Positions 2,510 to 5,064 of a stretch of DNA of 64,000 nt are shown here, one piece after another. Under the pieces are notes generated by a model, which worked only from the letters and a program-made list of their open reading frames with translations, did no database searches and was not told where the DNA came from. This DNA is from Gemmatimonadetes bacterium T265 (GTDB lineage: Bacteria; Gemmatimonadota; Gemmatimonadetes; Gemmatimonadales; Gemmatimonadaceae): NCBI GenBank assembly GCA_019973575.1, contig BPUI01000002.1, positions 434,001 through 498,000 of the forward strand. The letters run 5' to 3'. A program made the translations under genes and the position numbers. The number at the start of each line of letters is the position of its first letter. The stretch's first letter is position 1.

Positions 2510-3424
2510 TTAGGCGACGCGCGCGGCCCGCTCCGCCTCCGGCGCGCCGAAGAGCCGCGGGTGGAAGATCCGCGCGAACAGCTCGACGCCGTCGACGAGG
2601 CGCGGCCCCGGCCGGCTGACGTACGCGTTCGCGTCCACGGCCCACACGGCGCGGCCGCGCAGCCACGCCCAGCGCGGGTCGCCGGCCAGTGCCGCGGCTT
2701 CGGCGCACGCGCGCGCGAGGTCGTAGCCGCACGGCGCCACGACGACGAGCTCCGGCTCTGCCGCCGCGAGCGTCTCGTGCGCGACGGTCGTCGAGTGCGC
2801 GCCGGCGGTGCCGAGTACGTCGACGCCCCCGGCGCGGCGGACCATCTCCGGGCCCCAGTGGCCGGCGAGGAACACCGGATCCGTCCACTCGACGACGGCC
2901 ACGCGCGGGCGCGGCGCGCGGGCGGCCTTGAGCACCTCGTGCACCGCGGCGAGCCGGGCGCGGAACGCGTCGACGAGCGCCTCACCCGCGGCCGTACGGC
3001 CGAGCGCCTCGGCCACGCGGCGGACGTCGTCGCACACGCCGGCGAGCGTGGTGCCGCCGAGCGTGACGACGGCGGGCGCCGGGCCGCTCGCGTCACCGAG
3101 CCGCGCCGCGATCGCACACACGTCGTCCTGCGACACCGCGCACACGTCGCAGAGCGCCTGCGTGAGCAGCACGTCCGGGCGGAGCGCGGCGATCGCGCCC
3201 TCGTCGAGGGTGAAGACCGGCGCGCCCGCCGCGGCCGCGTCGCGCACCGCCGCGTCCACCTCGCCCGGCGGCGCGTGGACCGGGACGGCGCTCGCCGTCA
3301 CGCGCGGCAGGCGCGCGGCCTCGGGCGGGAAGTCGCACTCGTGCGTGACGCCGGCGACGAGGTCGAGCGCGCCTAACGCGGCGCAGATCTCGGTGGCGGC
3401 GGGGAGGAGGGAGACGACGCGCAT
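2510..3424 (-). CDS. BtuF/FecB-like ABC transporter substrate-binding protein
   Basis: 304 aa from the ATG at 3424. The reading frame is open further upstream but that part is Arg/Pro-rich and unlike the family. It begins MRVVSLLPAATEICAALGA, the classic start of the BtuF/HemV-like periplasmic-binding fold, and keeps the two-lobe pattern (VVEWTDPVFLAGHWGPEM in the middle; a LxxGDPRW-type motif near the end). No signal peptide precedes it, as in many cobalamin-binding homologues annotated in GC-rich phyla; its site of action is therefore unclear. Ligand likely corrinoid or chelated iron (inference). No permease or ATPase partner is in the window. The stop codon lies inside a GCCTAAC heptamer. 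Confidence 0.85.
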   Translation of the reverse strand: MRVVSLLPAATEICAALGALDLVAGVTHECDFPPEAARLPRVTASAVPVHAPPGEVDAAVRDAAAAGAPVFTLDEGAIAALRPDVLLTQALCDVCAVSQDDVCAIAARLGDASGPAPAVVTLGGTTLAGVCDDVRRVAEALGRTAAGEALVDAFRARLAAVHEVLKAARAPRPRVAVVEWTDPVFLAGHWGPEMVRRAGGVDVLGTAGAHSTTVAHETLAAAEPELVVVAPCGYDLARACAEAAALAGDPRWAWLRGRAVWAVDANAYVSRPGPRLVDGVELFARIFHPRLFGAPEAERAARVA

Positions 3425-3446
3425 GGGGGTGGGCGAACGGCGGGGC

Positions 3447-3488
3447 GAACGGCGCTGTTGGAGGGCTGCTGTTGAGGAGCGGCGGTTG
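3447..3488 (+). repeat. Left copy of a 42-bp inverted repeat flanking the four-helix-bundle gene
   Basis: Aligns with the reverse complement of 4036-4077 at 38 of 42 positions by eye. The shared core is GGCGCTGTTG, then GGCTGCTGT, then GAGGAGCGGCGGTTG. It lies 22 bases upstream of the binding-protein start and about 120 bases before the ATG of the bundle gene. Confidence 0.85.
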
Positions 3489-3523
3489 ACGTGGCGCGGT
3501 TGACGTGGCGCGATTGGCGTGGC
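3482..3523 (+). repeat. Three tandem 14-bp repeats
   Basis: GCGGTTGACGTGGC occurs at 3482-3495 and again at 3496-3509; a third copy with two changes, GCGATTGGCGTGGC, is at 3510-3523. The array abuts the left inverted repeat and lies in the divergent spacer between the binding-protein gene and the four-helix-bundle gene. Confidence 0.85.
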
Positions 3524-3609
3524 GCCGAGGACGCGGGGCACGGTGTTTCGGGCCGGTGCGCAAGGAAATGATGTACTCCGTCGCGCGGAAGCGCGGTATC
3601 GTGACCCGC

Positions 3610-4173
3610 ATGCAGCCCAACCCTTCACCCGCTCGCGCCGCCTCGCGCCCCGGCGGCCTCCGCGTTCGCTACGAGGCCGGCCTCCTCGCGCGCGCCACCT
3701 TCGACGCGGCGACGAGGCTGCCCCGGGGCAACCGCGGCGACCTCGCCGACCAGCTCCGGCGGGCGGCGACGTCGGTGTACGCCAACCTCGCCGAGGGTGA
3801 GGGACGGGCGACGACAGCCGATCGACTGCGCTGCTTCACCATCGCCTGGGGCTCGCTGCGCGAACTCGACGCCCTGCTCGACCTCGCGGAGTACGTGAGC
3901 GCCCCCGACGGCCGCGACGCGACCCGTGCGCGCGCGCACGCGCGGCACGTCGGCCGCTTGCTCATCGCCCTCCGCCGCACGCTCGCCGACTCGGCCGTCG
4001 ACCGCCCCCCTCCGCGCCGAAGTAACAGCGCCCCCCAACCGCCGCTCCTCCACAGCAGCCGTTCAACAGCGCCGTCCACCCGCCCTCCATCCTTACCGCC
4101 CCACCAGCCGCAGAATCCCCGCCAGCACGAGCGCCCCGCCCGGCGCGAGCCACGCCGACGGCACCTCGCCTAA
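3610..4173 (+). CDS. Four-helix-bundle protein (S23/23S-rRNA-IVS-like family)
   Basis: 187 aa from the ATG at 3610. The family signature is clear at 48-66: QLRRAATSVYANLAEGEGR, then a conserved Arg/Phe helix and a SLRELDALLDLA helix (82-93). Such proteins are small helical bundles found inside 23S rRNA intervening sequences and as free-standing genes; a relative (Avd) works with diversity-generating reverse transcriptases, but no reverse transcriptase is seen here. The real fold probably ends near residue 130; the last 50 residues are Pro/Arg/Ser-rich and run through the right inverted repeat and 81 bases into the opposite EamA gene. The gene is bounded by a 42-bp inverted repeat on both sides. 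Function unknown. Confidence 0.8.
   Translation: MQPNPSPARAASRPGGLRVRYEAGLLARATFDAATRLPRGNRGDLADQLRRAATSVYANLAEGEGRATTADRLRCFTIAWGSLRELDALLDLAEYVSAPDGRDATRARAHARHVGRLLIALRRTLADSAVDRPPPRRSNSAPQPPLLHSSRSTAPSTRPPSLPPHQPQNPRQHERPARREPRRRHLA
4036..4077 (-). repeat. Right copy of the 42-bp inverted repeat
   Basis: Reverse-complement partner of 3447-3488 (38 of 42 matches by eye). It sits inside the low-complexity 3' part of the four-helix-bundle reading frame and just past the EamA stop on the other strand. The two copies could pair into a long stem enclosing the gene. Confidence 0.85.
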
Positions 4174-5064
4174 CGCCACCGCCGCGACCACCGCCGAGAC
4201 GACCGGGACGAGCAGCAGCGACGCGCTCGCGAGCACCGGCGACAGCCGCCGCGACGCCGTCGCGAACCCCACCGTCGGCACGAACGTGCACGCGACGCCA
4301 AAGAGCGCGAGCAGCGCCCACCCGCGCGCGTCGAGCGCCGCGGCCGGCACGAACGGCACCCCCGCGACCGCCGCGTGGAGCGCGAGCGCGGCGCTCCCGA
4401 CGACGAACGTGAGCACCGCGACGCCGAGTGCGCCGGGCGCCGCCCGTCCCCCGGCCGCGGCGCGCCGCCTCGCGTCCTGGAAGGCGAGCGCGTACCCCGC
4501 GGAGAGCACCGCCGACACGAGCGCGAGCGCGGCCCCGACCGCGTGCGCGAGCGCGCCGCCGCCTGCCCCTTCGCGCAGCCCCGCCCGCAGCGCCGGGACG
4601 AGTGTCACCGCCACGCCGACGAGCGCGACCGTCGCCCCCTGCCGCTCGGGCGGCGTCGCGCGCTCCCCGGCAATCCTGCGCAACGCGAGCGCGCAGAGCG
4701 GCGCCGTCGCGATCAGCAGCGCCACCTCGGCCACCGGCGCGATGCGGAACGCGACGACGGCGACCACGTAGTACGCGGTCAGCAGCGCGGCGAGCAGCCA
4801 CGCCGCCGGCGCGCGCAGCGCGGTCGCGACCTCGCGCCGCACGCGCGGCGCAGCCGCCATCGGCGCCGAGGCGGCGAGCGCGAAGGCGAGCCGCCCGGCG
4901 ACGAGTTCGCGCGGCGAGAGCGCCGGGATCTCGCGCACGAGCGTCCCCACGAGCCCCCACGCGAGCGCCGTCGCGCCGGCGGCGGCGAGGCCGACGCGGT
5001 CCGGTCCGACGCGCTCCGGCCCGACCCGATCGAGCCGCGCCGCGTCGATTGCCGTGCGGCTCAC
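4093..5064 (-). CDS. EamA/DMT superfamily transporter
   Basis: 323 aa, with about ten hydrophobic segments in two EamA repeats (about 15-145 and 165-320), the normal size for drug/metabolite exporters of the inner membrane. The start is taken as the GTG at 5064-5062, which overlaps the TGA of the upstream amidohydrolase (GTGA, 5061-5064); the longer open frame upstream is Arg/Gly-rich and lies over the amidohydrolase. Translational coupling to the amidohydrolase is likely. The substrate is unknown. The 3' end overlaps the end of the opposite four-helix-bundle frame. Confidence 0.88.
   Translation of the reverse strand: MSRTAIDAARLDRVGPERVGPDRVGLAAAGATALAWGLVGTLVREIPALSPRELVAGRLAFALAASAPMAAAPRVRREVATALRAPAAWLLAALLTAYYVVAVVAFRIAPVAEVALLIATAPLCALALRRIAGERATPPERQGATVALVGVAVTLVPALRAGLREGAGGGALAHAVGAALALVSAVLSAGYALAFQDARRRAAAGGRAAPGALGVAVLTFVVGSAALALHAAVAGVPFVPAAALDARGWALLALFGVACTFVPTVGFATASRRLSPVLASASLLLVPVVSAVVAAVALGEVPSAWLAPGGALVLAGILRLVGR

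Follow-up and report, generated by a model that had tools for sequence, protein, structure and literature searches.

To our knowledge, no role has been found for the IVP/S23 proteins in more than 25 years. Their genes have been described in the 23S rRNA intervening sequences (IVSs) of Coxiella and Leptospira; in Coxiella, the repeats are 28 bp and the element is 428–444 nt long (PMC4990558). Avd, the DGR accessory protein, whose family is homologous to IVP, acts on an RNA template together with a reverse transcriptase (PMC10053308). A single-copy gene standing beside its own dispersed hairpins is known from the REPIN-RAYT system (PMC3116915). Heptameric tandem repeats, for their part, are over-represented in many bacteria with no evident mechanism for their spread; described examples include the TAACTGA repeats of Beggiatoaceae (PMC4679880) and the GGGAATC repeats of Xanthomonas, 7-nt arrays that often occur as inverted pairs (70 cases; PMC4692102). 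Both the residence of IVPs in rRNA stems and the existence of heptameric repeats, also as inverted pairs, are therefore already known. The two papers on the repeats (PMC4692102, PMC4679880) draw no link to IVP genes, and we found no paper in the open-access literature that joins the two, although subscription papers may exist. Xanthomonas campestris itself encodes an IVP, XCC0516.

Here we describe an IVP gene in the window, by which we mean the whole 64,000-nt stretch analysed, and its relatives elsewhere. Like an rRNA IVS, the window element carries a gene of this protein family in the loop of an inverted-repeat stem, but it lies outside rRNA, between a PF01497 and a PF00892 gene, and the arms of the IVP loci surveyed here are typically heptad arrays that belong, in most genomes tested, to a dispersed family lacking the gene. 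With REPIN-RAYT it shares a gene of largely vertical inheritance beside a cognate hairpin that is genome-specific and scattered through intergenic DNA; a vertical gene combined with species-specific repeats was seen at one site, the ychF-pth clade described below. In contrast to that system, the protein is an IVP of four-helix-bundle type instead of a Y1 (HUH) tyrosine transposase, with PF05635 as the only domain in the enclosed gene, and the stems are longer (often 30–220 nt per arm), consist mostly of heptads and have arms that change in concert. Unlike MITEs or classical transposons, IVP-bearing copies have different arms at each locus, also within one genome. Intergenic tandem 7-nt arrays are common to these loci and to the heptameric repeats of cyanobacteria (STRR), Xanthomonas and Beggiatoaceae; over the IVP loci, identity peaks at the lags of 7, 14 and 21 only, and the window family has a period of 14. 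The window element is thus not an rRNA IVS (it lies outside rRNA), not a RAYT (it has no Y1 transposase) and not a MITE (the arms differ). On balance, we read it as a decaying IVP copy of a dispersed family of heptad-armed hairpins, in which gene and hairpin would work as a pair in the way of RAYT and REPIN. The finding links two unexplained genome features, the IVP family and the 7-letter repeats.

The window locus and its dispersed hairpin family

The first-pass annotation had proposed an inverted repeat at 3447–3488 / 4036–4077, which proved real and slightly longer (3443–3488 / 4036–4081, 46 nt per arm, 89%, by inverted-repeat comparison). Gapped alignment of the arms covers 71 columns at 83%, and the predicted duplex energy of the paired arms is −117 kcal/mol. 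The inverted-repeat (IR) score of 36.5 compares with 21.5 at the 99th percentile of a mismatched-flank null, which includes some related loci and is therefore conservative in its upper tail, placing the repeat well above chance. The enclosed gene belongs, as had been suggested from the letters, to the S23/23S rRNA intervening-sequence family (PF05635 23S_rRNA_IVP, E 1.4e-17; TIGR02436 also matches). Its codon-position GC of 0.79/0.63/0.90 is gene-like, and the nearest solved structure is XCC0516 of X. campestris (PDB 2gsc). The features of the locus are collected in Table 1.

Table 1. Features of the IVP locus in the window, in window positions.
Feature	Position	Strand	Basis
Left neighbour, periplasmic binding protein (PF01497), outside the element	2510..3424	-	family match
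Left arm, inward-pointing, with five degenerate 14-nt units (GCTGTTG + 7 nt)	3443..3523		repeat comparison
Block 5' of the IVP gene, common to the C1:853k paralog (GTGTTTCGGGCCGGTGCGCAAGGAAATGATG)	3543..3573	+	alignment
IVP (PF05635 / TIGR02436) four-helix-bundle coding region, hairpin loop	3613..4023	+	family matches, codon-position GC
Right arm, 14-nt units as reverse complement	4013..4081		repeat comparison
Continuation of the IVP ORF in frame across the right arm, then into the 3' end of the EamA gene	4024..4173	+	ORF
Right neighbour, EamA-type transporter (PF00892), outside the element	4093..5064	-	family match

Both arms are built as short arrays of 14-nt period, and the outer end of the right one, GGGCGGGTGGACGGCGCTGTTG (minus strand), matches the outer end of the hairpin family described below. 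The block shared with the paralog upstream of the gene is probably the promoter region of the IVP gene. That the arms enclose the gene is correct for the IVP coding region, which lies in the loop; the ORF as a whole (3505–4173, 222 aa) has no stop ahead of the right arm and continues in frame through it, with a codon-position GC that is less gene-like in the run-on. This run-on is a sign of decay, and together with the degenerate arms and a long branch in the IVP tree it makes the window copy a decaying, poor example of its family. Its value is that of a pointer to the hairpins.

Searches of the window's own genome (G000; 5.6 Mb in 6 contigs, with counts taken from searches and fetched stretches) used the window arm as query, a search that the first-pass annotation had proposed, and returned paired inverted matches at other sites. 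The unit common to these matches is 14 nt long, GCTGTTG plus 7 variable nt. The exact two-unit pattern GCTGTTG-N6-CGCTGTTG occurs 46 times in forward and 45 times in reverse orientation, compared with 0 for the reversed-pattern control; with 2 mismatches allowed, the counts are 104+93 vs 12+11. Pairs of units are ordered plus, then minus, and resolve into about 28 elements, nearly all without an IVP gene. Each consists of a left array, often of five units, a centre of 37 nt, in some cases extended by 14 or 28 nt, and an array of opposite sense on the right; the outer ends are similar across elements, and a few sites have a single array only. The elements adjoin the 3' ends of genes, often between convergent ones, and contig C1 carries about 26 of the 28 (binomial p 7e-6), mostly at 0.85–2.43 Mb. 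The copy in the window, on C2, is among the most degenerate. Arms within one element match each other better than they match the arms of other elements (p 0.0007).

The centre of one such hairpin, at L114:12560-14120 (G000:C1 ~1684.6-1686.1k), is occupied by a mutator-family IS (PF00872, E 5e-113), bordered at each junction by the direct repeat TCCCGGCCGG.

Two simple accounts of the arms were ruled out. They are not private terminal inverted repeats of one element, the arm being a dispersed repeat, and they are not an old repeat common to relatives: the search that had been proposed for relatives found the family in none of the class's 294 other genomes, except for a single stray match in one of them. 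DNA matches of the window gene in relatives are short and lie mostly inside the coding part. A 3-unit search of wider genome contigs returned only single arrays in unrelated genomes with different 7-mers between the units. No IVP gene stands next to these 14-mer arrays within the loci fetched (20 genomes); 12 of the 20 genomes that bear them have IVP genes elsewhere.

The window's genome encodes four IVP genes, two of them inside 14-nt hairpin elements, namely the window copy and a paralog at C1:853k. The paralog, whose arms comprise one unit on the left and three on the right, contains an in-frame TAG, and its ORF ends just ahead of its arm. The third gene, IVP3 at C1:2787.7k, has an arm of 219 nt on either side; these two arms are 90% complementary, stand 476 nt apart, bear no relation to the 14-nt arrays and show no clear heptad period. 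The IVP3 arm is also found in IVP-less hairpins at C1:964k, 1035k and 1513k, with arms of about 170–180 nt (85–89%) and loops of 71–89 nt. For the fourth gene, the inverted-repeat scan found no stem.

Stems and heptads around other IVP genes

Among 394 genomes of the class, 186 have PF05635 genes. We surveyed 44 of them, comprising 40 Gemmatimonadota IVP genes fetched with their flanks and the four of the window's genome, with the window IVP measured from its ATG to the start of the right arm and 477 genes from the same loci serving as controls. The architecture noted from the window alone, an IVP gene in a stem outside rRNA, holds generally: with arms tight around the gene, an IR score of at least 20 was reached by 31/44 IVP genes, compared with 1/477 controls (Fisher 2e-38). 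About 30% of the surveyed loci are without a strong stem. A wider scan with 700-nt flanks found stems in only 17/44, the tight windows revealing more, and the median loop of the Gemmatimonadota IVP stems is 453 nt. That an unrelated, widespread repeat merely happens to flank this one gene would agree with the lack of an IVP gene in most copies of the window repeat; we regard such a coincidence as close to negligible, as the survey refutes it by finding other IVP genes enclosed likewise by other stems. The first-pass annotation had named a widespread repeat unrelated to the gene as the outcome that would speak against it; the repeat turned out to be dispersed, and not to be unrelated.

The arms are typically tandem heptads with their reverse complement on the opposite side, for example CAGGTAT, GGGTGTC, GGGCGAC, TGCAGAG, GAGAGTT and GGACTGA. 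The flanks match themselves with an identity of 0.72 at lag 7 (control windows, 0.45), 0.68 at lag 14 and 0.61–0.62 at lag 21; all other lags are at background. The heptad differs from locus to locus, also among the IVPs of one genome. At the strong-stem loci, the 5' arm has more G than C on the IVP sense strand in 25/31 cases, so that the stem is polar relative to the gene. Very short loops characterise three IVP-less heptad hairpins of G016, at L300:11048-11127, L302:7572-7665 and L303:9503-9584 (GGAGCGT; GGGACTC).

In the stretches sampled, 540 kb from four IVP-rich genomes contained 8 heptad arrays (in only 2/4 of the genomes), and 589 kb from nine IVP-free genomes contained none. These figures bear on the idea that replication slippage and template switching at hairpins produce heptad palindromes by themselves, the IVP having no role and merely surviving inside. 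Such an origin would suit the direct and unpaired heptamer arrays that also occur (PMC4679880, PMC4692102); it is nevertheless highly improbable in our estimate, given the absence of lag-7 arrays from the IVP-free genomes and an arm–IVP association far above that of control genes.

The pattern recurs beyond Gemmatimonadota. Our sample of other phyla is not an unbiased one, consisting of 20 genomes reached by pattern search for the window unit; 12/20 have PF05635, and their sources include Oscillatoriales and other cyanobacteria, Phycisphaerae (Planctomycetes) and a deltaproteobacterium, among others. A flanking inverted repeat at p<=0.05 was found in 24/27 IVP genes with enough flank, and the lag profile of these flanks is that of Gemmatimonadota (7, 14, 21). 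Among cyanobacterial plasmid IVP genes picked by protein search alone, 4/5 have a stem: Calothrix AP018208.1 (heptad AGGGTGT), Nostoc NZ_CP054697.1 (AGGGAGT), Nostoc NZ_CP040276.1 (AGGGAAC) and Anabaena NC_019429.1 (GGTGACA). The flanks of the Pseudanabaena plasmid gene have no inverted repeat, and a search of phage records for IVP gave no match.

A stationary gene with changing arms

The specificity of arms was examined with a pooled query of 23 arms against 15 genomes. Among the roughly 150 matches listed, nearly all fall on the same genome's own IVP-locus arm, the exceptions being two in G189 on an arm from the same genus and some run-over between neighbouring query arms. Separate sites, from several to dozens among the matches listed, were found in seven genomes (G066, G189, G005, G256, G020, G014 and G033) and for the 219-nt arm of the window's genome; in G328, G359, G175 and G241, the matches listed include little beyond the IVP locus itself. 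In most tested genomes, then, the IVP-type hairpin also stands without an IVP at some to dozens of intergenic sites, and the dispersed repeats are of the family that encloses that genome's gene.

We followed one site in particular. In G019, the L219 arm matched its own locus only, among the matches listed. The arms of another IVP gene, which is located between genes that we take from the flanking sequence to be ychF and pth, were found again at about 15 places; of those retrieved, at least 12 are complete hairpins, about 150 nt long and with no IVP gene. The ychF-pth IVP occupies the position of the inner stem of the short hairpin. It is present at this site in 12/16 congeners and absent from 4, and the 12 proteins form one clade (SH-aLRT 99). 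Between G019 and G354, dN is 0.085 and dS 1.5 (dN/dS ~0.06). At this one followed site, the gene is thus under purifying selection and vertically inherited. The sequence of its arms differs between species, yet the arms pair in 7 or 8 of the 12; four orthologs (G185, G421, G422 and G256) have no clear arms. The first-pass annotation had envisaged a small mobile element, and part of that idea survives: the hairpins are the dispersed part, whereas the arms are not private ends of one element and the IVP gene itself, where followed, is stationary and vertically inherited.

Hairpins without the gene also change in concert. At five IVP-less hairpin sites aligned between species, some species have quite different heptads at the same place, and the CGAGT/ACTCG ends are conserved. 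In the inner stems of G019 and G354, the two arms of an element resemble each other more closely than they do the arms of other elements (p 0.0002). At site L345, the hairpin is absent in G354 and G256, and hairpins are therefore gained or lost; L345, the sole filled/empty pair compared, has no clear target-site duplication.

The main rival to a RAYT-REPIN-like pair treats IVP genes as passengers that enter existing hairpins at their tips, the hairpins being spread by something else. It can draw on the abundance of IVP-less hairpins of the same family in the window's genome and in G019, on the inner-stem position of the G019 gene, and on the mutator-family IS in the centre of one hairpin, from which it follows that hairpin tips are targets; rRNA IVSs, too, sit in helices 9, 25 and 45 of 23S rRNA (PMC4990558). 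However, the ychF-pth gene is one old, vertical insertion with changing arms, the opposite of a hopping gene, and different IVPs of one genome sit in different hairpin families. We consider the passenger account unlikely, with the strongest claim of the rivals to attention.

The stem could also act in RNA, the other possibility raised by the first-pass annotation, folding in the transcript as an RNase III site, a terminator or a stabiliser, with complementarity maintained by selection and the IVP binding or regulating transcripts. Of the 18 hairpins placed in G019 and G354, 11 lie between convergent genes, 6 between tandem genes and 1 between divergent genes, and such a position at gene 3' ends would suit an RNA function, as would complementarity kept despite sequence change and the rRNA IVS stem, which is an RNase III substrate (PMC4990558). 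A function of this kind leaves unexplained why the period is always 7 nt, why one sequence family has so many copies in a genome and why the dispersed hairpins match the IVP's own arms, and we judge it improbable.

A possible role for the IVP

IVP genes are associated with the hairpins, and for the protein itself we infer a part in their spread, on the model of RAYT and REPIN. The IVP, a nucleic-acid-binding relative of Avd, would recognise its cognate hairpin as folded single-stranded DNA or RNA. Together with a polymerase that it does not encode, either the host's or a reverse transcriptase, it might then help to copy the hairpin, or to convert it, at other sites. Combined with the copying of one arm from the other, slippage by 7 nt at a time would produce heptads and keep the arms complementary. 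The result would be a stationary gene with dispersed hairpins, as in RAYT-REPIN, but with an unrelated protein. We know of no catalytic domain in IVP, and movement would therefore need a separate partner. Several results given above also speak against this reading: the lack of a clear target-site duplication at L345, heptad arrays in only two of the four IVP-rich genomes sampled, tested genomes with few listed matches beyond the IVP locus, IVP loci without a strong stem, the missing heptad period of the IVP3 arms and the ychF-pth orthologs without clear arms. A reverse transcriptase would be a reasonable guess for that partner, because IVP is related to Avd, which works with one.

More broadly, and with somewhat less than even confidence, we propose that the IVP may be the trans-acting factor of an unnamed, phylum-spanning system that generates, spreads and homogenises heptameric hairpins. 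Such a system would cover the cyanobacterial, Xanthomonas and other heptameric repeats, with the rRNA IVSs as its rRNA-resident members. If each IVP gene does belong to its own genome's heptad hairpins, both puzzles, that of the proteins and that of the repeats, become testable by one experiment. It would also mean that a protein without a known catalytic domain runs a repeat system that keeps its arms complementary while their sequence changes.

On the Nostoc edaphicum plasmid pNe_5 (L412), an AGGGAGT-armed IVP gene lies between two ribonucleotide reductase genes, and on the Anabaena sp. 90 plasmid pANA02 (L413), a GGTGACA-armed one lies between cas6 and cas4. Elsewhere, 23S_rRNA_IVP is counted among CRISPR-linked genes (PMC10910872), and insertions like that of pANA02 may explain its presence there.
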